Of a stretch of 64,000 bases of DNA, positions 52,788 through 64,000 are shown piece by piece. The notes below the pieces were generated by a model that had not been told where the DNA came from, made no database searches, and saw only the letters and a list, made by a program, of their open reading frames with translations. The stretch is from an uncultured Desulfobacteraceae bacterium (lineage in GTDB: Bacteria > Desulfobacterota > Desulfobacteria > Desulfobacterales > UBA5852). The stretch is taken from positions 62,001-126,000 of the forward strand of contig CAJXSL010000016.1 of NCBI GenBank assembly GCA_913060875.1, in the 5' to 3' direction. Position 1 is the first letter of the stretch. Every line of letters starts with the position of its first letter. The position numbers and the translations under genes were made by a program.

Positions 52788-54065
52788 TCACGGCAGAACT
52801 GCCGCTTTCAGGTCTTCTACCACCATGCCAAAGGTTCGCGCGATTTCGCGTTCCTGTTCCAGGCGTTTAATGTAGTAGTACACAGCAAGGCTTTCATCCG
52901 GGTGGGCTTTCCAGGCATGGCAGTGCAGGCGGCCGGTCTGGTGGTAGAGATAGGGGCAGCCGCCCATGCAGATGGGCAGCAGCAGGCAGTCGGCGCATTC
53001 GAGTTGGAAAATATTCCGCCGGTTCCAGTTCTCCGCGTTCCGGCGCATACGGTCATCTTCGGTATGAAACAGGTGTCCCACAGCGGCGGATCCCTCCGAG
53101 GCTTCGTTCCAGCATTTCAGCAGGCAGCCGTGGGGCGTAACCACGAAGGCATTGGCCCTTTCGGCCATGCAATAGGTGCTTATGGCTCGCGGGGCGCGGT
53201 AGGCCAGATAACCCTGTTCGACCAGTTCCATCGTGGTCTCCAGTTCGAGCAGGGCAAAGTCGGCATCGGCCAAACAATCGCTAACCACGTCCATGCATAC
53301 CCCGGTGTAGGGATAGGTCCGGCCGAGATAGGGATGGACCCTATCGGTCAACCCCATGTCGGCTATTTGTTGGAGAATGGCGGAGATACCCTCACGATTG
53401 GTCTGGTCCACATTGATGCGCAGGTGGATGGGCACCCGGGATGCGGCCGCCTCGATGTTGGCCAGAATGGTGTCGAAGGTGCCCCTGCCATCGGCCAAAG
53501 GCCGCCGCTGATCATGAACGGGCTGCGGGCCATCGAGGGTGACCTGGGCGTGGTTGATGCTGCAGTCCCGCAATCGTTCGGCCATGTGGCCGTCCAGCAG
53601 GTAGCCGTTGGTGATGATGTGGGATGAGTAGCGGGCCTTGCGTCGATCGCAGAGCCGCCGGAAGCCGGCAGTGAGCCTTTCGATACGATCAATTTGAAGC
53701 AGCGGCTCCCCGCCGAACCAGGTGACGGAGAGGGTGCCGTCTTCGCCCAACCGTGCGGCCGCCATATTCAGCACGGCTTCCTCGACTTCCGGCCCCATGG
53801 TCTCAGGCTGATGCTCCTGATAGCAATAGCGGCAGCGAAAATTGCATGCCAGGGTCGGAATGATGGTCAGGCTGAGATTACGGTTGTTTGTTCGGGCCTG
53901 GGCATGCCCGTTTCGCAGGTAATCCCTTTCATCGACTTCTGCGGGAATTAGAAAACCCTTATCCAGGAGTTGCCGGCAAAGCCCGTGAGGTTGAGAGGGA
54001 TACGCGTTGTGAGGGGTAGCCAGCAGTATTTCCGTCTGCCGTGCTTCTGAGCCATCCAGGGCCAT
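52788..54065 (-). CDS. Radical SAM/SPASM peptide maturase
   Basis: Radical SAM protein; 425 residues from the first ATG. The cluster motif CNFRCRYC is at residues 74-81 with WFGGEPLLQ and LDGPQPVHD downstream. The SPASM region carries auxiliary-cluster cysteines: CMAERANAFVVTPHGCLLKC and CADCLLLPICMGGCPY. This is the layout of enzymes that modify ribosomal peptides. It lies directly downstream of a cysteine-rich peptide gene, its likely substrate. The frame is open 39 codons above the ATG and encodes YNFHTLLPDGTVLFFNF, the usual start of such maturases. A perfect AGGAGG stands 6 nt before an in-frame ATC at 54180-54182, so the true protein may begin there (464 residues). Confidence 0.9.
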   Translation of the reverse strand: MALDGSEARQTEILLATPHNAYPSQPHGLCRQLLDKGFLIPAEVDERDYLRNGHAQARTNNRNLSLTIIPTLACNFRCRYCYQEHQPETMGPEVEEAVLNMAAARLGEDGTLSVTWFGGEPLLQIDRIERLTAGFRRLCDRRKARYSSHIITNGYLLDGHMAERLRDCSINHAQVTLDGPQPVHDQRRPLADGRGTFDTILANIEAAASRVPIHLRINVDQTNREGISAILQQIADMGLTDRVHPYLGRTYPYTGVCMDVVSDCLADADFALLELETTMELVEQGYLAYRAPRAISTYCMAERANAFVVTPHGCLLKCWNEASEGSAAVGHLFHTEDDRMRRNAENWNRRNIFQLECADCLLLPICMGGCPYLYHQTGRLHCHAWKAHPDESLAVYYYIKRLEQEREIARTFGMVVEDLKAAVLP

Positions 54066-54225
54066 GAGATTCAGGGTAAAGAAATTGAAGAAGAGAACCG
54101 TACCATCCGGCAGCAGGGTATGGAAATTATAGGCGGATGGCTTCAGGTCCTGGCTGTCGTTTTCTTGGGCATCATGTTCGATGGCGGACCTCCTGATCTA
54201 AAGGCTTTCGAATTGGGCGTCTTTA

Positions 54226-54981
54226 CTAATTGGTTTTTGGGCGCACGTTGAGCGTTTTTTGCTGGACAGGTTGCCCGCCCATTACCTGCTGGGGGGTGAT
54301 AACGCGTTTCTGTCGGAGCATGTTCTGAACCTGGCGTCCCAGTTGTCGGGTGTTGGTGGTATGGAAGTGTTCCATCAACCCCTGGACATAAGGATCGTTG
54401 CGGCACTGGTTCAACAGGCCCGTGATATCCGCTTTATTTTTGCCGCAGCCGCCGAGACTCGGGCAGGATTGCGACGTGCACTCATTGTCACCGCAGACAT
54501 CGAGAGTGCCGCAGTCCTGATCGTTACAGTCGTTGGTGCCACATTCACCTCCCGATCCATCTTCGCCGATGTCCTGGCCGCTGCATACATTGGTGGAACA
54601 GGTGTCCAAGGCCGGGCATGAGTCGCCGCCAAAAGAACCGCACACAGAAAATTGAGGGCAGCTGCTGGCCGCATTCGCCCCCGTGACCCCACCCAAAGAA
54701 TGGACGGCGCAACCCATGCCTTGTTTGGCACCCGGCAGCCCCAGGCGGGCGGCCGGCTTCATGGGCCTAATCCGCCCAAATTGGCTTTGAAACACCTTCA
54801 GATCGAACCCGGAGAGTTTGACTTTGAGCATTTTCAATTTGGTTTGAGCGTTTTTGGGCAACGTTCCGGCTTTGGCTGACAGGATACGTTTAAGATCCAG
54901 GACGCTGATGCCGGCTGCCAGGGCGACGGTTTTGAGAATGTGGTTCATGGCTTCGCGGCGATCCATGTGGGAGGTAAACAT
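54226..54981 (-). CDS. Cysteine-rich precursor peptide, putative substrate of the SPASM maturase
   Basis: Protein of 251 residues of a type I cannot assign to a named family. The N-terminal ~105 residues have no dense cysteines and include a hydrophobic helix (HILKTVALAAGISVLDL). A core of about 72 residues holds twelve Cys at spacing of mostly 5-6, with Cys-X3-Asp units CPALD, CSGQD, CGTND, CNDQD and CGTLD, plus CGDNE. A Gln/Arg-rich tail follows. Cys-X3-Asp repeats are what freyrasin-type ranthipeptides carry, where a radical SAM enzyme links Cys sulfur to Asp. The SPASM enzyme gene starts within ~45-160 bp downstream. ATG 54981 has the best RBS spacing; 54987 and 54960 are alternatives. 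Confidence 0.78.
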   Translation of the reverse strand: MFTSHMDRREAMNHILKTVALAAGISVLDLKRILSAKAGTLPKNAQTKLKMLKVKLSGFDLKVFQSQFGRIRPMKPAARLGLPGAKQGMGCAVHSLGGVTGANAASSCPQFSVCGSFGGDSCPALDTCSTNVCSGQDIGEDGSGGECGTNDCNDQDCGTLDVCGDNECTSQSCPSLGGCGKNKADITGLLNQCRNDPYVQGLMEHFHTTNTRQLGRQVQNMLRQKRVITPQQVMGGQPVQQKTLNVRPKTN

Positions 54982-55052
54982 TGGCATTCCCTTTCATTTG
55001 GAGGTGGATTATTCGAAACGGTTGCATCACCAATAGGTTTTTCAGTTGACGA

Positions 55053-56834
55053 TCAAGGGTGCCGGCCACGCATCCAGAGATGGACGGCACTTAAAATACC
55101 AAACAACAAAAACGTACCGGCAAAAAAGTACGGCACGGCATTGAAACCGGGGCCTCCCGGAATCAAGACTGCTTGTCGGGGCTTGTCGGGATTGTAGTAG
55201 ACCGGAATGGATTTCCCTTTGGGATAGCGGGTGACAAGCTGTTGGGCGTTTCCGGAAGGCGAGGAAAGCGCTACTTTGGAGCCCTTGAAGCGATTGCCAT
55301 CGACTTGGTATTCATAGGCGATTTTGGGGGTCGTTATGAAGGTTTCCTCTTTTTGGGAGTCATCACTGCTGGTGCGGGTATGCGCCTCGATTTCCGATCG
55401 AATGATCACGCCGTTGGCCGTTGGCCAGGTTTTGCTGGCCATGCGGGTCGCATAAGTGCTGTAGGTGAAAAGGGCGATGATGAGGCCGACCGCGAGGAAG
55501 AGAACCGTAAACGCGACCTTTTCCACATAGGGCGAAGCGAACCCCCCGATCAAAAAGAAAACCCCGAAACAGAAAATGATCAAGGCGGCCATATAGGCTT
55601 CGAAAAGCAGGACCGGAAGGCAAACCAGCAAGAGAAAGGCGCCGCCAATCCTTTTCCCCCAACGCTTGACCGTCGGCATCAGGGCGGTGTCGGCTTTGTC
55701 TATAAACTCCCGGAAAGTTTTTGTGGCATCTTCAGGGGAGAGGCGCTCCGGTGTCGCCGATGCGGGCGGCGGCGGTGGGGCCGCTTCGGTGGAGGACGCG
55801 CCGGCAGCCAGGGCTGCATTGCCGGCTGCCACGGACCCCGGTGGGGCCTGACGTTTGATCGTCCATATCCGGGTGTTGAGATTCAGATCCTCGACAATAT
55901 CGATGGCCAGCTTCAGATCATCGTAATATTCCTGCACGTGGGCGATGGTCAGGAGACTTTCCATAATTTTGGGCTCGAACAATTCTCGGGCCAGGGGAAT
56001 GGCCACGTGCAGTTTGGACGCCGAAAAGGAAAGCCGCATCTCTTTCCGGGTCCGATTGCGGAAGTCCACGATTCGGCGCATCAGGCTGGTGGAAAGTAGA
56101 TAGCGGGCCTCCACCTGGTCTTCGCCATAGACCACGAACAACTTTTCGAATTCTGGGTCTTCCAGTTTGATCAACTGGCCGTTTTGAACGTTGAGGGCCT
56201 GAAGCGCCTGGCCCAGATCGCCAAACAGTTTTTGGGCGGTGTCCGGCAGAACCACGGTTGTTCCCTTGAAGGTTTTGTTGAAATCCGCCACGAAAAAAAG
56301 ACCGCTGAAAATCGGGGTATAGCGCTTTTTAGTCCCCCGGTTGGCACTGCTCGAGCTGGAACCCTGGCGGACAATGTCCACCCGTTTGGCATGGATTTCG
56401 GAAAACTTGATGGCGGTTTCGCCGATGGTGCCGCTGACCAGGTCGTCCCCTTTGTATTCGCCGGGCCGGTCGTGGAATAAATGGCTGGCCAGGAATTCTT
56501 CCTTGGACACTATACCGTCTTTGTCGTACCGCAACCCCTGATGGACAAACGCCACAATCCTGGGAATGATGGTGGCCTTGAATCCGGCATGGTAGTCCCG
56601 GTAGTATTTGACATGCCAGGGGAAAAGGGTGAAAACCGCCGAAAGCACCAGGAACAAAAAGAGAAACGTAAGATTCAGGCCGAATTGGCCGGCAACAAAC
56701 AAAAATACCAGATTAAGGCCCAACACAATGAGAACTGCCTGGATCAGTTTCTTTTTGACGGTGATGCGCTGGGCTTCCAGCTTTTCCAGATCCGGCAGGA
56801 GTTCGGATTGATAGAATGTCTCCAGCGACGTCAT
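55053..56834 (-). CDS. Membrane protein with DUF3137-like and DUF3592-like domains
   Basis: Protein of 593 residues. N-terminal half: two membrane helices (about 30-75), then a soluble domain typical of DUF3137 (SGTIGETAIKFSEIHAKRVD; FSGLFFVADFNKTFKGTTVV). A Pro/Ala-rich linker (AAPPPPPASATPERLSPEDA) leads to two to three more helices and a DUF3592-type segment (MASKTWPTANGVIIRSEIEA; KGKSIPVYYNPDKPRQAVLI). A fusion of these two families is uncommon. LemA lies upstream in the same direction; DUF3137 proteins are frequent LemA neighbours. Role unknown, probably envelope-related. Confidence 0.82.
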   Translation of the reverse strand: MTSLETFYQSELLPDLEKLEAQRITVKKKLIQAVLIVLGLNLVFLFVAGQFGLNLTFLFLFLVLSAVFTLFPWHVKYYRDYHAGFKATIIPRIVAFVHQGLRYDKDGIVSKEEFLASHLFHDRPGEYKGDDLVSGTIGETAIKFSEIHAKRVDIVRQGSSSSSANRGTKKRYTPIFSGLFFVADFNKTFKGTTVVLPDTAQKLFGDLGQALQALNVQNGQLIKLEDPEFEKLFVVYGEDQVEARYLLSTSLMRRIVDFRNRTRKEMRLSFSASKLHVAIPLARELFEPKIMESLLTIAHVQEYYDDLKLAIDIVEDLNLNTRIWTIKRQAPPGSVAAGNAALAAGASSTEAAPPPPPASATPERLSPEDATKTFREFIDKADTALMPTVKRWGKRIGGAFLLLVCLPVLLFEAYMAALIIFCFGVFFLIGGFASPYVEKVAFTVLFLAVGLIIALFTYSTYATRMASKTWPTANGVIIRSEIEAHTRTSSDDSQKEETFITTPKIAYEYQVDGNRFKGSKVALSSPSGNAQQLVTRYPKGKSIPVYYNPDKPRQAVLIPGGPGFNAVPYFFAGTFLLFGILSAVHLWMRGRHP

Positions 56835-56881
56835 TTGCGCACCCTCCTCTATCAAACAGTTGAAATGCCGCGGGGTTCGAC

Positions 56882-57143
56882 TAACCCGGATATTTCACGC
56901 GTTCGAGATGGTCATCGGCAAGGCATCAGGGGCGCCGCTGTACGCCTGTACCGCAAGCCCTTGATAACGCAGCCGATGGGCATCTCGGGCGCGCCCGTAG
57001 GGTGAAATTTTTTCTGCCTTTTTGGAAAGCAGCGCAGGTTACAAACTGTTACCGAAAAATCAAGCCTCGAATAGCGCTTATAACATCGATATATTTACAT
57101 AAATTTTATTGTACGAAAAAATTTCATGAAATATTCGGGCTAA
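56882..57143 (+). repeat. Family B repeat, full copy (262 bp)
   Basis: TAACCCGGATATTTCACGCG at the left and ATGAAATATTCGGGCTAA at the right are inverted ends. It aligns throughout with 37224-37486. No coding capacity. It lies between the DUF3137/DUF3592 gene and lemA. Confidence 0.88.
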
Positions 57144-57228
57144 GGGGCGTCGGCCATTCCCTCGGCCGGCGTGAGGTCATCGGATGTTACTTGGTCCGGA
57201 CGGCGCCTTAGTGTTTATGTTCAGCCGG

Positions 57229-57786
57229 TCATGTCTTAAAGATGCGGCCGACATCGACGGGTTGGGCCTCCCGGGTGCCAATTGCGAAAAACACCTTTTG
57301 CTGATAGCGCATCAAACCGGCCACCAGGTTGCTGGGAAACATTTCCAGGGCATTGTTGTAGTCTTTTACAGAGGCATTATACGCCCGGCGGGCGGCGGAG
57401 ATCTGCTCCTCCACTTCGTTCAGGGAGGCCTGCAGGTTCAGGAAGTTCTCGCTGGCCTTGAGATCCGGATAGTTCTCCACCGCCATCATGATGCGCCCCA
57501 GGGCGCCGGTCACGGTTTTGTCCAGTTCCACGGCTTCGGCGTCGGTCATCGTGCCGGACGCCGCCTTGGCGCGCATGTCCGTCACCCGGGTGAGGACATC
57601 CGCCTCGTGTTTCATATAGCGCTTCACCATTTCGGCCAGGTTCGGAATAAGATCGAACCGCTTCTTGAGCAGGACATCGATGCTGGAGAAAGCATTGGCC
57701 ACCTGATTTTTTTTGCCCACCAGGCTGTTGTAAATCAGGATCAGGGCAACTGCGAGTATGCCGACAACGATGAGGGTAACGGACAC
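57229..57786 (-). CDS. lemA: LemA family protein
   Basis: Membrane-anchored helical protein of 185 residues, the standard LemA length. One N-terminal membrane helix (VTLIVVGILAVALILIYNSL) is followed by the LemA motif NQVANAFSSIDVLLKKRFDL IPNL and the NFLNLQASLNEVEEQISAAR and YNNALEMFPSNLVA segments. Biochemical role is not established for the family. It is 9 bp downstream of the DUF3617 gene. Confidence 0.95.
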   Translation of the reverse strand: MSVTLIVVGILAVALILIYNSLVGKKNQVANAFSSIDVLLKKRFDLIPNLAEMVKRYMKHEADVLTRVTDMRAKAASGTMTDAEAVELDKTVTGALGRIMMAVENYPDLKASENFLNLQASLNEVEEQISAARRAYNASVKDYNNALEMFPSNLVAGLMRYQQKVFFAIGTREAQPVDVGRIFKT

Positions 57787-57795
57787 GACGGCCTC

Positions 57796-58401
57796 CTATT
57801 TAAAAATATCGCTGAAAACGCCCTGGATTCCCTTGCGGACTTCTTCGATGGTATTTTGCTTGACTTCGTCACGGGCCGCCTGCCCCACGTCCTTGGCATC
57901 TTCGGTAATGGCCTCTTCCACGGCTGACGGTTGGGATTGGGCCTGAGGGGAGGCCTGTTGAGAAGGCGTTGCAGATGACGAACCGCTGCAGTTGCCGATC
58001 CGGCGGCCGGTGATGGTATTGGTGATCTGCATGTTGGTGCCGCTGATGGCCATGACCATACTGCCGTTCATGGTGTTGCCGTGATAGGTGACCTCGCCGC
58101 TGCCTTCCATCTGGCCGCCCTGGCCGCCGCAGACAATATCCCAGCTGATGGTGTCGCTGTTGGTGACCACGTTGGTTATCTGGCATTCCTGGGAAGCGTT
58201 TTGGCTCATGGGGACCAGATCGTCCTGGGTGATGCACTGGGTATGGGTTTCAGCGGGGACCTGCATGGCGCCCCCACCCTGCATCTGGGTTTCGGTGGTG
58301 AATTCCCACAGGCCGGGATTGATGTTGGGACCGGCCAATGCAGAGCCCGCTATCAGCAGGATGGTTAGCAGCAGCGTTGGGATCAGGTTACGGGTTTTCA
58401 T
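57796..58401 (-). CDS. DUF3617-like secreted protein
   Basis: Periplasmic protein of 201 residues with a signal peptide ending GSALAGP. The mature start (INPGLWEFTTETQMQGGG) and the HTQCITQDDL and CQITNVVTNSDTISWDIVC elements match the DUF3617 family, probably with two disulfides. A low-complexity Ser/Gln/Ala linker precedes a helical tail. Function unknown. GGAGG lies before the ATG. Confidence 0.88.
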   Translation of the reverse strand: MKTRNLIPTLLLTILLIAGSALAGPNINPGLWEFTTETQMQGGGAMQVPAETHTQCITQDDLVPMSQNASQECQITNVVTNSDTISWDIVCGGQGGQMEGSGEVTYHGNTMNGSMVMAISGTNMQITNTITGRRIGNCSGSSSATPSQQASPQAQSQPSAVEEAITEDAKDVGQAARDEVKQNTIEEVRKGIQGVFSDIFK

Positions 58402-58430
58402 GGGGACCTCCTTCGTTGATAAACGTTATC

Positions 58431-58643
58431 TAGTGCCCATCCATCAATGGCATCTTTCGGCCCCTGGCGGCGTTCTCGCTCGTTTTCAATCCTCGCAATA
58501 GCGGGCTATTCCTCCGGTTGACACCCACCGATTGGAATCGATTAGACGGGAAGTCCCGTCTAGCGGGATCATATCCCGCGGAGCGGGAAAACGCGCTCGG
58601 GCCTTGCCAGGAACCAAAATCTACCATTTAGGGACGGACACTA
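58431..58643 (+). repeat. Family A palindromic repeat, copy 5 with extra hairpins (213 bp)
   Basis: Outer parts equal copy 1. About 66 bases are inserted that contain further perfect hairpins: TAGACGGGA-AG-TCCCGTCTA (58543-58562) and GCGGGAT-CAT-ATCCCGC (58563-58579). The right end CTA at 58641-58643 is the stop codon of the minus-strand gene that follows. Confidence 0.88.
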
Positions 58644-59003
58644 TCTACAATCAAGCCGGCAGGTTTTTTTGATATCGTCTTTGTGAATACGATCGCACAA
58701 GGTGCAGTCCTTTTGCAGAAGGGCCAGCCGGTAGTAGCACCACCCGTGCACGCCGATGGCCCTGGGCCAGTAGGTGAGAATGTTTTCACAAAGGTCCGGA
58801 TCACCGATTTTCTCGACTTCCTCCTGGTAGCACCAGGGGCCCGGGCGTTCTGTCTGGGCCTGGCATTTTTCATAGATGGGGTCTTCCCCGGCTGAAGCGA
58901 TCGGCGCGGCTAAGAAGAAAAGCAGCAGCAGGGACAGCGGCAGACAGATCCGGGGCGATGTTGCCATAAGTAAAAATCTATTGGATGTTGATTTTAGGTT
59001 CAC
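58641..59003 (-). CDS. Small secreted cysteine-rich protein
   Basis: Protein of up to 120 residues with a signal peptide (LPLSLLLLFFLAAPIASAGE). The mature part of ~80 residues has eight cysteines (CQAQT, WCYQE, LCENI, WCYYR, DCTLC, TCRLDC), so disulfides are likely. No heme or ferredoxin motif. Start uncertain: GTG 59003 or ATG 58967, the latter leading straight into the signal peptide. Unassigned family. Confidence 0.7.
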   Translation of the reverse strand: MNLKSTSNRFLLMATSPRICLPLSLLLLFFLAAPIASAGEDPIYEKCQAQTERPGPWCYQEEVEKIGDPDLCENILTYWPRAIGVHGWCYYRLALLQKDCTLCDRIHKDDIKKTCRLDCR

Positions 59004-59033
59004 TATCCTTTTTCCCCTTATTTAATTTGTCCC

Positions 59034-59504
59034 CTAATACTTCCCGGTCGGCGTATTGCTGACCGGCTTCGGATGGACCTTCCCCACGGGCTTGGGGGTC
59101 GGGTTCACTGGTTGGAGCAGCCGCCGCAAGGTGTCGGTGTCGTCCTTGTCGGGCCGTCCGCTGTCATCGGTATAATGGGTGAGGGTCATCACGATAAGAC
59201 GGTTGCCGGAGAGATTGATGGTAAGATTGTGCCGGCAGGAATTGTTCTGGTAGCGCACGGTGAGGTGGCCATCGGCATGGGAACTGGCCGCGGCCCATCC
59301 CCAATCGTAGTCTTTTCTGGGGCGTTCAGGCCCCCAGGCATGAACATGGGCTTTGGAATCGACAACCTGGATATCGAGTTTGGTCACGGCGGGGCTGTCC
59401 GATCCGGATTTGATCCAGGTGCCGTTGTACTGATTGAGATTTGCAGCCGATGCATTGCCGATCAGAAAAAGCACGATTGCAGTGGTTAACAGGAGGTGTT
59501 TCAT
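59034..59504 (-). CDS. Small secreted protein of unknown function
   Basis: Protein of 156 residues with a signal peptide ending GNASAANL. The mature part begins NQYNGTWIKSGSDSPAVTKL, a pattern seen in small beta-barrel secreted proteins, and ends in a Pro/Lys-rich tail (PTPKPVGKVHPKPVSN). One cysteine. AGGAG precedes the ATG. The 181-bp gap to the next gene holds nothing recognised. Confidence 0.75.
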   Translation of the reverse strand: MKHLLLTTAIVLFLIGNASAANLNQYNGTWIKSGSDSPAVTKLDIQVVDSKAHVHAWGPERPRKDYDWGWAAASSHADGHLTVRYQNNSCRHNLTINLSGNRLIVMTLTHYTDDSGRPDKDDTDTLRRLLQPVNPTPKPVGKVHPKPVSNTPTGKY

Positions 59505-59685
59505 GATCGATTCTCCTTTAAAAATATAAATTCACCGGTTGCGTTGAAACACACGGTTACCATGTTGCGACACAGCGATTGTTCCCCCGGTGGCGCTGGA
59601 CCTCATGGTAGGTGTTATGCGCATGGTTTCTCCTTTTCACGGTTCGGTGGCTTGGTATTTCAATCTCTCCTGCTGCCGGAAACAT

Positions 59686-61899
59686 TCAGTTACAGTTTAG
59701 CTTCCTCTTGTCCTTGAACAATTCATTAAATTCGTTCTGGTATGCTTCGAGCTCCCTCGTTGCCATGTCATCGAGTGACTTGATGGGGCCCTTGCGGGTG
59801 TACTGGTCGACATGGGTCCTTTCATGTTTCAGGGCGGCTTCGAAACGGGCTCGCCCCGCCTCGTTGCCAAATTTTTTCTGCCAGCAAGCCAAAGCGCTAT
59901 AGAGGTCCCGGGATAAGAGATTGCCGTTCTTGTCATAGATCTCTATTTTTACCGGGCTTCCCGTGCAGTGGTCCACAATGTTCGTGCTTCCCAGGGGATA
60001 GCCCCAATTGTTTTTGCTCCCGTCAAGGTTTTGGTTTGCATGGGCGGACATGTTGGTTTCGGCTTGGGTGCTGTCGAGCTGTTCGCTTTGGCAGAGCGCT
60101 TTATCGCCATCATAGAAAAGATCATCCGCCTCCAAAGGCGTTTCACGGGATTCCGGATAAGGGGCGACGTTTTCCCCTTCAGCCGACGACGCGTCGGAAA
60201 CCTGATCGAAAAAATCCGCATTGCCATTGCGGGCGTCGATAACGGCGTTTTCGACGGCTTTCTGGTACATTGCCATTTTTGTCCCGAGATCGTAGTTTTG
60301 TTTGTCAACGTATTCCCGGATCGAGGTATTCTCGTAGGCTGCCCGGACGACGCTAATGAAATTCATCCTATCCTGCAGGATCTCGCAGGGGTCTTCATCC
60401 CCGTCATCCGTCGTGAGAGGATCTTCCTGGGGGTGGGATGTCGGATCGTTTTCCGATAGCTGCCAACTCAGCGAATAGGTCACGTTCATGTTGCCGCCGG
60501 CCGGGGGTTTCAAGGGCTTCTGGTTCTGGGTGGCGGCGATTTCCAGTATCGAGATACCCAGGGACGGCGGGCATAATCCCTGGTCGTCCGCCTGCCAGTT
60601 GCGGGATCCGGCAAGGTGTCCGGAGGCCTCAGGTTCCACCTGGATACCGATGAGACATCCCGGGAAAGCCCTATCCACAGGGGTATAGGTGCAACTCTCT
60701 TTTCCCGATTCTTTTTTTCGTCCGGGGATTCGCTTTTCGTTTTTCGCCGGCGCCAAAATCAATTCGTAATAATCCGGCAGCGGCGAGGCGCTTTTGAACG
60801 CCGATAAAAATCGCTGCTTGTCCGCTGAAAGATTCTGGAGGTTTGGTGCGGCCATGGAGGCGTAGCGATGCATCTTGAACATCCCCTTGTCGGATAGCGG
60901 CAACTTCCCAACGTCATGATATGCAACGATCAGGGGGTCCTGGCAGTGGCCGGATGGTATGGGCTTCAGGCGTATGCGTTTTTCATCGTAAACATAGGAC
61001 ACACTGCCGCCTTCGGCCCTGTAAGTCCGCGCGGGTTGAAAGGCGCCGTAGCCGCCCTGGACGGTGGGGCTGGCTTCTTCCCACAGTTTCATGTGCCCTT
61101 TGAGGTGCAGGCTGATCGATCCCGAATACCTATATTCATCCGGATCGGTCACCTGCCAGCGGACGGTGGCCCGGATAAGGGCGTAAAGACTGTCCGGCAG
61201 ATCGTCGTGGATATCGAAGGCGCTTTCCGACGGGAAGGCGTCGTCCGAAGAAGGGACCTCCGTTTCCGGTTCGTCATCCTTGGGGGGGGACGGATCATCC
61301 GGCGGATTGCCGCCGTTCCCTTTTCCAGGGGGAGATCCGGATCCGCTGCGTTCCGGGAATTGGTAGCGGCGAACCAATTCACCCTTCGTGATGGGCGTTC
61401 CCTCGATGGTGACGTCGCGGCCGGGGGGTATCTTTTTTTCTTTGGGGGCGGCCACAGGTTTAGTGGCGTTTTGATGGCGCTGGATCGTTTGCGGATCCAA
61501 GGCCTTCTCGATGGACGACTTCAGGACGACGGACAGGGTAACATGGGTCCGGTCGCCTTTGCTTTTTGCCTGGACTGTTATCATGTCCCCCTGGCGCATC
61601 AGCATCAGGACGCAGGCTTTGTCATTGGACATGACCTGCCCGGCCGGCCATCCCTTGGCCTGCATGGCCTGATGGTAGAATGCGACGGCTTCCGACGGCG
61701 AAACACCGACCTCGAACTCGAAACGCCCCGAACCTTCGAATTGCTTTTCCTTCAGGACGGTGGCCCCCTCAATCAGGGGGATGGCGTTTCCCAGAACGGA
61801 CGGCTCTTGGGATGGCGCCGGTTGGGCCAACAAGACGATCGTAAGGGCAACAGCGGCTTTTATGAAGACGCTTATCAAGGGCTTTGGATAGGGCGTCAT
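59686..61899 (-). CDS. Large secreted protein with C-terminal HExxH metallopeptidase-like motif
   Basis: Protein of 737 residues with a signal peptide (VFIKAAVALTIVLLAQPAPS). The first ~115 residues (IPLIEGATVLKEKQFEGSGR) look like a small periplasmic domain. A Lys/Pro-rich linker follows (RSGSGSPPGKGNGGNPPDD), then a long middle region with no recognised domain. The C-terminus has HERTH at about 692-696 and RELEAY about 24 residues later, the spacing of a gluzincin-type zinc site. Whether it is an active peptidase is inferred only. ATG 61899 follows AAAGGTG. It belongs to the envelope/export block that ends with the peptide and maturase genes. Confidence 0.75.
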   Translation of the reverse strand: MTPYPKPLISVFIKAAVALTIVLLAQPAPSQEPSVLGNAIPLIEGATVLKEKQFEGSGRFEFEVGVSPSEAVAFYHQAMQAKGWPAGQVMSNDKACVLMLMRQGDMITVQAKSKGDRTHVTLSVVLKSSIEKALDPQTIQRHQNATKPVAAPKEKKIPPGRDVTIEGTPITKGELVRRYQFPERSGSGSPPGKGNGGNPPDDPSPPKDDEPETEVPSSDDAFPSESAFDIHDDLPDSLYALIRATVRWQVTDPDEYRYSGSISLHLKGHMKLWEEASPTVQGGYGAFQPARTYRAEGGSVSYVYDEKRIRLKPIPSGHCQDPLIVAYHDVGKLPLSDKGMFKMHRYASMAAPNLQNLSADKQRFLSAFKSASPLPDYYELILAPAKNEKRIPGRKKESGKESCTYTPVDRAFPGCLIGIQVEPEASGHLAGSRNWQADDQGLCPPSLGISILEIAATQNQKPLKPPAGGNMNVTYSLSWQLSENDPTSHPQEDPLTTDDGDEDPCEILQDRMNFISVVRAAYENTSIREYVDKQNYDLGTKMAMYQKAVENAVIDARNGNADFFDQVSDASSAEGENVAPYPESRETPLEADDLFYDGDKALCQSEQLDSTQAETNMSAHANQNLDGSKNNWGYPLGSTNIVDHCTGSPVKIEIYDKNGNLLSRDLYSALACWQKKFGNEAGRARFEAALKHERTHVDQYTRKGPIKSLDDMATRELEAYQNEFNELFKDKRKLNCN

Positions 61900-62060
61900 G
61901 GCGTTGGCACCTTTTGCTTGTCTTTCAAATAGGATCTCAAGCACAAAACACCGGCAGCGAAGAAAACAAGCCCGACCATGAAAACGATAAGGGAATTCCA
62001 TAGAATGAGAATGTTCTTCTTTTCTTTGTTCGGGCTTCCCAAAGATAGCGTGGGTTTCAT
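61896..62060 (-). CDS. Small single-helix membrane protein
   Basis: Protein of 54 residues with one membrane helix (ILILWNSLIVFMVGLVFFAA). Its ATG lies 4 bp after the stop of the von Willebrand A gene and its stop overlaps the start of the next gene (ATGA), so it is coupled to both. Short, but the position and helix make it believable. Confidence 0.65.
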   Translation of the reverse strand: MKPTLSLGSPNKEKKNILILWNSLIVFMVGLVFFAAGVLCLRSYLKDKQKVPTP

Positions 62061-62064
62061 TTGA

Positions 62065-64000
62065 TTATTCCGATATTGGGAAGGCCACCGTAATGGTTTC
62101 GGACGCCCCTGCCGCGATGTGGACAGGATCGAAAACGGCCACCTGTTTCTGGTCCCGGCTATTGGTGACACGTACGGTAAACTCGCCTTCCGGCAGGGTG
62201 ACTTGACGGGTGCCATTTTTAGGCCAGTTGCTCCAGTTTTTGAAAACCTGTTGGCCCTCAGCATCCTTGATTTGGATCGGTGTCGCGAAGGGCTTGCCTT
62301 CGAGGGTCACATTGATGGTCAAGTCGCCGGCGAAAAATTCGACGGCTTTTTCGATGGTGCTCCCCGGCGCTATCGCCAGGTCCTCCAGGACGACAACCGG
62401 CTTGCCGGCAATCTTGCTGGCCCATGTGTCAACGCGGTAGGTGCCCGGCATGAGACGTATTTTTACCTGGCCGGCCGATGGGCTGGCCATCTGGTTGTTA
62501 AAATGCTTTTTTTCTCCCTGGCGATAAAAGAAAACATTGCCCCGGAACGGCTTGCCGTTCAGCAGCGTGGTGATGATCAGGGTGCCGTCTGAAAAGTCCG
62601 CGGTGCGTTCCACGATCTCACCGGCCGTGATGACGATGTCTTTCAGGTGGACTGTCGGGCTTTGGCCCCCGCTCACCCCGCTGTCCTTGAGCTCGGCCTG
62701 ATATGTGCCGGGTTCCAGCCGGATCTCGACGGTTCCGGTTTTGCCGGAGGTGCTGGCAGGCGTCCAGCGTTTGCCGCTTTCCTGGTGGGTCAGGGTGACA
62801 AAAGTGTGGAAGGGTTTGTCATTTTTGGTAGCCGTTACCTTGAGGATACCATAGGGCGGGGTGGATTTTTGCACCACCTCCTGGGCCGCGGCCAGGAATT
62901 CGCCGGCATTGCCGGCCGTGTAGTACTGCCCGCCGCCTTCACGGGCCATGCATTCGAGTTCCTGCTTTTCCTCCTCGGTGACATCGAACCCGATGACGTG
63001 CATGACAAACTGGATGCCGGCGGCCTTCAAATCTTTCACAAGACCGCAGGGATCCGGGTCGCAAGTTTCCTTGCCGTCGGAGACCAGGATGATGGTGGTC
63101 GTATCTTCCAAGTGTTTGATGCGCTCGGCGGTCAGCCGCACCGACCGGCTTATGGGGGTCTTGCCCCTGGGGCTCAAGGCCTGGATCCGCTTCGCCATTT
63201 TGTTCTTGTCCAGCGGGCCCAGGGGAATCAGCTCTTCCACGTCGTTGCAGTCGCCCTTGCGGCGGTGGCCGTAGGCCACCAGCCCCACCACGGCATCATC
63301 CGGCAGTTCCATCACCAGGTCGGTGAGCACCTCTTTCGCTATGGCGATTTTAGCCTGGCCTTCCACCTGGCCCCACATGGAGCCGGACGCATCCAGGATA
63401 AAAACAATGTTTCCGGTAGCCTCAGGAGAAGGGGAGTCCGTTGGGCTAGGCGCCTGGGACTTGGTGTCGGCGGCGGCAACAGTCGTTGCTGTTGCTTGTT
63501 TCTCCGCCCCCCCGGCTTTCCCAGGGACAGATGCCGGCTGATAGCCCTCCGGTATCTGGAAGAGATCCGGATCGACCGGGCCCTCCTTGATGTTGCGCAG
63601 TTCCAAAACCGGGTTGGTATTGAGTCCGAAGCGCTCTTCGCGCACGATGTGATTCAGCGTTCTGGCGGTCCATACCTTGGCGGCCGGCGCGGATTTGCCG
63701 GCGACGGTGTAAATGGTTGTTTCACAGGCGTATCCGTTGATGGCCTCGTCTGGTCCCGGGGCGGCGGCCATGCCCTTGCGGGTCAAGGGCCAGCCCACCA
63801 GGGGGTTCATCATGGCTGTTTTTTCGATGTCAGTAATTTCCACATATTGTTTCTGCTGGGGGTTGAGACCCCATGTGACACCGGTTTCCTGGTTCACAAT
63901 GGAAGGGAAGGGCGGAACCGTTATTGGTCCTGTAACTTTTTGTATGCGGTAAAAGGGTGTTTTGACATGAAGTTGATAGAGGCTGTCGACGCCCTGGCCG
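62065..64000 (-). CDS. von Willebrand A-domain protein, 5'-truncated by window edge
   Basis: The frame is open to the window edge; 645 residues are visible and the ATG at 63897 is internal. The first ~190 residues (YRIQKVTGPITVPPFPSIV; YACETTIYTVAGKSAP) resemble a DUF4412-like periplasmic domain. The vWA domain follows with an intact MIDAS: VFILDASGSMWG, then GKTPISRSVRL and ILVSDGKETCDPDPC. The C-terminal ~250 residues are repeated beta-sandwich units (RLEPGTYQAELKD, RLMPGTYRVDTWA, TLPEGEFTVRVTN). Probably secreted; likely a protein-binding envelope component. It starts the minus-strand block running to the maturase. Confidence 0.88.
   Translation of the reverse strand, partial: GQGVDSLYQLHVKTPFYRIQKVTGPITVPPFPSIVNQETGVTWGLNPQQKQYVEITDIEKTAMMNPLVGWPLTRKGMAAAPGPDEAINGYACETTIYTVAGKSAPAAKVWTARTLNHIVREERFGLNTNPVLELRNIKEGPVDPDLFQIPEGYQPASVPGKAGGAEKQATATTVAAADTKSQAPSPTDSPSPEATGNIVFILDASGSMWGQVEGQAKIAIAKEVLTDLVMELPDDAVVGLVAYGHRRKGDCNDVEELIPLGPLDKNKMAKRIQALSPRGKTPISRSVRLTAERIKHLEDTTTIILVSDGKETCDPDPCGLVKDLKAAGIQFVMHVIGFDVTEEEKQELECMAREGGGQYYTAGNAGEFLAAAQEVVQKSTPPYGILKVTATKNDKPFHTFVTLTHQESGKRWTPASTSGKTGTVEIRLEPGTYQAELKDSGVSGGQSPTVHLKDIVITAGEIVERTADFSDGTLIITTLLNGKPFRGNVFFYRQGEKKHFNNQMASPSAGQVKIRLMPGTYRVDTWASKIAGKPVVVLEDLAIAPGSTIEKAVEFFAGDLTINVTLEGKPFATPIQIKDAEGQQVFKNWSNWPKNGTRQVTLPEGEFTVRVTNSRDQKQVAVFDPVHIAAGASETITVAFPISE

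Follow-up and report, generated by a model that had tools for sequence, protein, structure and literature searches.

Introduction

Radical SAM enzymes that form thioethers are known mainly from small peptides. SCIFF, which belongs to the CteA/CteB system with CteB as the thioether-forming enzyme, has six Cys in forty-five residues. To our knowledge, the only protein precedent for such thioether chemistry is the QhpC subunit. In the QhpC/QhpD system, a radical SAM enzyme places several thioethers in the gamma subunit of quinohemoprotein amine dehydrogenase, a protein that is later periplasmic; its three Cys-to-Asp/Glu links are already introduced in the cytoplasm, ahead of export (PMC7876137). 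In the PapA/PapB (freyrasin) system, a SPASM enzyme acts on a Cys-rich precursor; the PapA-type precursor has six C-X3-D/E units and Cys-to-Asp/Glu thioethers, and PapB accepts Asp or Glu at spacings of n = 0-6 (PMC9413430). The families TIGR04463 (rSAM_vs_C_rich), Clo7bot, CefB and geopeptide have Cys-rich substrates by family name, with that of CefB denoting a Cys at every fifth residue.

The window analyzed here is a stretch of 64,000 nucleotides (contig CAJXSL010000016.1, positions 62,001 to 126,000) from an uncultured Desulfobacteraceae bacterium, probably a relative of sulfate reducers. It carries a two-gene, RiPP-type cassette consisting of a Cys-rich precursor and a radical SAM/SPASM maturase (Table 1), and is read as a rare, large-substrate form of the ranthipeptide-like SPASM thioether systems. 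Three further genomes have the cassette, two of the window's order (G067 and G384) and one of the Myxococcota (G389).

Table 1. Features of the cassette and of the adjoining upstream gene (window coordinates)
Feature	Position	Strand	Remarks and basis
DUF3137 + DUF3592 membrane protein, directly upstream	55053..56855	(-)	Pfam
Cys-rich precursor ORF	54226..54987	(-)	253 aa; homologues in G067, G384, G389; purifying selection
Leader region of precursor, ~109 aa	54661..54987	(-)	invariant RR-x-A-M and AGISV (alignment)
Precursor core, 12 Cys	54436..54660	(-)	6+5+5 pattern, 6 C-X3-[D/E]; residues 110-184
Precursor tail, ~69 aa, conserved	54229..54435	(-)	DPYVQ-L--F ... RQKR-ITP-Q (alignment)
Radical SAM/SPASM maturase	52788..54182	(-)	start uncertain: ATC 54182 or CTG 54146
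CNFRCRYC, radical SAM [4Fe-4S] motif CX3CX2C	53823..53846	(-)	sequence; Pfam PF04055
SPASM region, approximate limits, auxiliary cluster ligands	52908..53172	(-)	C-X13-G-X4-C ... CX2CX5CX3C ... C

Precursor gene and protein

When started at the Met at 54981, the precursor has 251 residues, the length given in the initial annotation; in the alignment this start fits the three homologues best and is where they begin. The protein has 14 Cys, 12 in the core and two outside it, and the translated ORF confirms the five C-X3-D units (CPALD, CSGQD, CGTND, CNDQD and CGTLD) and the single C-X3-E unit (CGDNE) reported for the core. That the precursor is an unusually large substrate with both a leader and a tail is likewise supported, and both flanks are conserved in the alignment of homologues. 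Searches of Pfam, NCBIfam and the PDB gave no match, and the plasmid and viral collections searched held no relative. The precursor is placed in a new family of unusually large substrates, described from only four sequences, of which one pair shares 81% identity.

Within the leader, an invariant Arg-Arg is followed by an Ala-x-Ala-like (AxA-like) stretch, which recalls a Tat signal; none of the Tat signal models in Pfam and NCBIfam matched the precursor at E <= 1. A profile made from the leader only was run against 146 relatives and gave no credible leader copy in any other protein. Those weak matches that could be read were unrelated, for example sigma factors and a protein that resembles carbonic anhydrase and has a Tat-type signal.

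AlphaFold2 models were of low confidence, with a mean pLDDT of 36.3 for the precursor and 44.5 for the natural precursor-maturase fusion of G067. Two helices were predicted for the leader at low confidence, and the tail was helical in the low-confidence models. Values of dN/dS between G067 and G384 were 0.13 for leader plus core, 0.40 for the short tail and ~0.18 for the whole precursor, and the maturase gave 0.15. The precursor value of ~0.18 indicates a maintained protein under purifying selection.

Distribution and pairing

Scanning of contigs with a precursor pattern returned two loci, one in a Desulfobacteraceae MAG (L031, contig C31 of G067) and one in a Myxococcota MAG (L032, G389). G384 was added when 389 genomes of the window's order were searched with a profile. 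Identity to the window proteins is 51-57% for the precursors and 49-51% for the maturases; G067 and G384 are 81% alike. In G384, precursor and maturase are adjacent, with ~70 bases between them. In G067, both are encoded by a single 708-aa frame that runs from precursor to maturase with no stop (contig C31; L031, 6001-8127; L044, 8590-10716), which ties the two functionally. In G389, the two genes stand on separate contigs: the precursor heads for one end of C140, and the maturase comes in at one end of C183. The similar repeat at both ends fits an adjacency broken by assembly, for which the inverted repeats were probably the cause, and the two genes would then be neighbors in this genome also. 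Inverted repeats of the type CCCCCTTGAAAAAGGGGG stand between precursor and maturase at these contig ends (L051 on C140, L043 on C183).

A maturase was present in 4/4 genomes that carry the precursor: two have the genes side by side, one has them fused and the fourth has them on matching contig ends. No precursor homologues regularly lacking a maturase were found. This co-occurrence and the natural fusion bear out the earlier reading of the two genes as a functional pair. The precursor was not found in the remaining genomes searched (389 of the order, 379 Myxococcota and 297 phylum-wide), nor in the rest of the families of G384 and G389. The cassette is rare: the genomes searched hold four members. 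That it occurs in two phyla and in families far apart, yet is missing from the searched congeners, suggests horizontal spread.

Other SPASM genes were noted in these searches. Four tandem SPASM maturase genes, 29-35% identical, lie at L046 (1429-6861; contig C194 of G010), and no Cys-rich precursor ORF of the cassette type was seen alongside. At L047 (G010, C280) and L052 (G047, C14), the neighbors of SPASM maturases include a TonB-dependent receptor and an ABC-substrate-binding-like protein, which looks like a separate conserved arrangement.

Maturase

The gene following the precursor on the same strand had been annotated as a radical SAM enzyme with CNFRCRYC and a SPASM region, and this assignment holds: PF04055 is matched with E = 6.4e-21 (Pfam) and all cluster Cys are present. 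The seven-Cys SPASM pattern is complete in the window maturase, and its Cys, together with those of CX3CX2C, are invariant in the four homologues.

Note that the ATG listed at 54065 makes the protein too short, since homologues align ~27 residues further upstream. No ATG, GTG or TTG is in frame in the window at the expected start (54065-54182). The candidates are an ATC (54182) that AGGAGG precedes by six bases, and the CTG at 54146, which the alignment pairs with codon two of the Myxococcota homologue; a rare start codon or a sequence error is possible. A 10-codon ATG frame overlaps this start region (54065-54182). The N-terminal domain of ~80 residues is conserved and, in a low-confidence model, consists of a beta-hairpin and helices. 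Its position and this tentative secondary structure suggest that it may be RRE-like.

The top NCBIfam models for the window maturase were TIGR04463 (265.6 bits, cut-off 525), Clo7bot (TIGR04334; 261 bits, cut-off 600), CefB (Cys-every-fifth, NF038107; 188 bits, cut-off 600), FlmE/OhkG, geopeptide (TIGR04280; 177 bits, cut-off 400) and PapB (NF047865; 125.5 bits, cut-off 340). The same models were found for the homologues, which scored 111-121 bits with PapB. Most of the nearest families have Cys-rich substrates. The ranthipeptide connection drawn in the initial annotation is upheld in that the maturase is kin to the maturases of Cys-rich peptides and ranthipeptides among the TIGRFAM/NCBIfam models, yet it lies below every cut-off. 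In 141 Myxococcota, no TIGR04463 member above the cut-off was found. By sequence, the best PDB match is CteB, then SkfB, and the same two lead in this order by fold, as judged from a low-confidence model. The maturases of the four cassettes cluster together (support 87/99); the next best maturase among 194 relatives had half the score.

Upstream envelope island

The precursor starts 65 bases past the DUF3137/DUF3592 gene, on the same strand. Further upstream are genes for LemA, a DUF3617 protein, a small Cys protein, a protein of 156 residues whose start is signal-like, an HExxH protein and a DUF4412-like/vWA protein. The cassettes of G067 and G384 also have a DUF3592 protein beside them, and relatives of five genes of the island, DUF3592 counted, lie near the cassette in G067. 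The vWA, HExxH, LemA and DUF3137 genes had been proposed to export or process the precursor. The case for a dedicated role of this kind is weakened by the congener G003 (C73:46025-61201, L056), which carries the island with its gene order largely kept and has neither precursor nor maturase. The island (window 55053-64000) is conserved in the genus whether or not the cassette is present, and is thus an independent unit associated with it, not a dedicated processing system. Within the cassette, no leader protease or exporter was found. The small Cys protein of the island (58641-59003) was found in only 3/116 relatives.

Conservation of the core

Enrichment of C-X3-[D/E] was assessed by fixing the Cys positions and shuffling the remaining core residues. 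The window core has 6 such units versus 2.2 expected (p = 0.004), and the Myxococcota homologue also has an excess (p = 0.01); in both same-order homologues, G067 and G384, the excess is not significant (p = 0.14 and 0.11), leaving it significant in 2/4 precursors. All 12 core Cys are kept in the four sequences, save one that is shifted by one residue in G389.

Residues at +3 and +4 were compared over the 12 fully conserved Cys columns of the four homologues. The +3 residue is invariant at 8/12 positions, in the order Leu, Asn, Gln, versus 3/12 for the +4 residue. Just two of these three are acidic, the Asp of CNDQD and the Glu of CGDNE, which are kept in all four homologues; three other +4 acids of the window, all Asp, are replaced by Thr, Gly and Tyr/Trp in G067 and G384. 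With an acid at +4 in all four homologues at only 2/12 positions, the C-X3-D unit does not stand as the conserved signature that it was taken for. Because the +3 residue is more conserved than the +4 acids, the core is better described as Leu/Asn/Gln repeats. Judged by the alignment, the conserved unit is a 16-residue (6+5+5) repeat that combines the Cys array with a Leu, Asn or Gln at +3, C-[PG]-x-[LF]-x-x / C-x-x-N-x / C-x-x-Q-x, rather than C-X3-D.

Acceptors and alternatives

The SPASM enzyme probably cross-links Cys of the 12-Cys core, and Cys-to-Asp/Glu thioethers are one of several plausible acceptor schemes. Under PapB-type ranthipeptide chemistry, each modified Cys would be joined to the Asp or Glu four residues on, giving ~six links in the window protein. 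The excess of C-X3-[D/E] in the window and Myxococcota precursors and the two +4 acids kept throughout favor this scheme, as do the PapB matches at 111-126 bits, and since PapB takes Asp or Glu at spacings of n = 0-6 (PMC9413430), shifted acids could still serve. The three replaced acids and the lack of significance in G067 and G384 weigh against it; PapB, moreover, lies outside the closest families, with a score far under its 340-bit cut-off. We give PapB-type chemistry somewhat less than an even chance, and a strict Cys-to-Asp/Glu linkage in the core is held just as tentatively.

It is less probable that the thioethers go to other acceptors, either the +3 Asn/Gln at the beta-carbon (compare the Asn in NxxcA) or alpha-carbons as in a sactionine, with the acids serving solubility or metal binding. 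The invariance of the +3 residue at 8/12 positions, against 3/12 at +4, speaks for this scheme but may instead reflect recognition or folding. A Cys-Asn beta-thioether does occur in NxxcA (PMC8326336), although there the Asn is three residues before the Cys, whereas in the cassette it is three after.

We consider it unlikely that the core repeat of 16 residues (Cys/L/N/Q) makes up a small solenoid or a metal-binding fold, with the maturase modifying only one or a few residues. AlphaFold2 predicted no fold for the core (pLDDT ~25), though the input alignment was shallow; the periodic +3 L-N-Q pattern would suit such a fold, and SCIFF offers a precedent in that a single link was seen despite six Cys (PMC8326336). 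That the precursor is no substrate, and that the genes are neighbors for another reason (the Cys protein being, for example, a partner or regulator of the enzyme), is highly improbable given the fusion, the 4/4 co-occurrence across two phyla and the similar divergence of both genes. A secreted protein whose Cys form disulfides only was rejected, as it leaves the tied maturase unexplained.

Proposed mechanism

In the preferred reading, that of thioether cross-linking in the core, the maturase would bind the long N-terminal leader via its own N-terminal, putatively RRE-like, domain. Within the 12-Cys core, a SAM-derived radical would abstract a hydrogen from the acceptor residues, and the Cys sulfur, possibly held by an auxiliary cluster, would join the carbon to give a thioether. 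Acceptors would be the Asp or Glu at +4 for some Cys and possibly the conserved +3 Asn, Gln or Leu. The product would be a segment with multiple thioether cross-links, flanked by leader and tail, both helical. We infer the bond chemistry, the leader recognition and the cellular location in this scheme. The role of the precursor would be structural or in the envelope, rather than that of an antibiotic.

A bolder version, which we regard as doubtful, is that most Cys of a domain built from 16-residue repeats, within a 250-residue, probably non-antibiotic protein, are stapled by the enzyme under an acceptor rule other than C-X3-D (possibly +3 Leu/Asn/Gln), and that in one lineage this protein is made fused to its own maturase. 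A conserved 250-residue substrate with twelve core Cys between conserved flanks would extend radical SAM thioether chemistry to stapled proteins. The natural G067 fusion offers a single-gene construct for testing.

Comparison with known systems

TIGR04463, Clo7bot, CefB and geopeptide are the best-scoring families, and the Cys spacing for which CefB is named is near the CX4C/CX5C spacing of the cassette core. Scores with these models reach 31-53% of the curated cut-offs, and the precursor is in no NCBIfam family. The PapA/PapB system is like the cassette in pairing a SPASM enzyme with a precursor that carries six C-X3-D/E units; the cassette differs in a precursor of ~250 aa whose leader and tail are both long, in the partial conservation of C-X3-D, and in a maturase far below the PapB cut-off (126 versus 340 bits). 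QhpC/QhpD is the best precedent for a protein substrate, although the maturase is only weakly similar to QhpD (63 bits, cut-off 453), no recognizable qhp genes lie beside the cassette and the precursor matches no known family. CteB is the best PDB match of the cassette maturase and, compared with SCIFF, the cassette substrate has ~250 aa with 12 Cys in its core.
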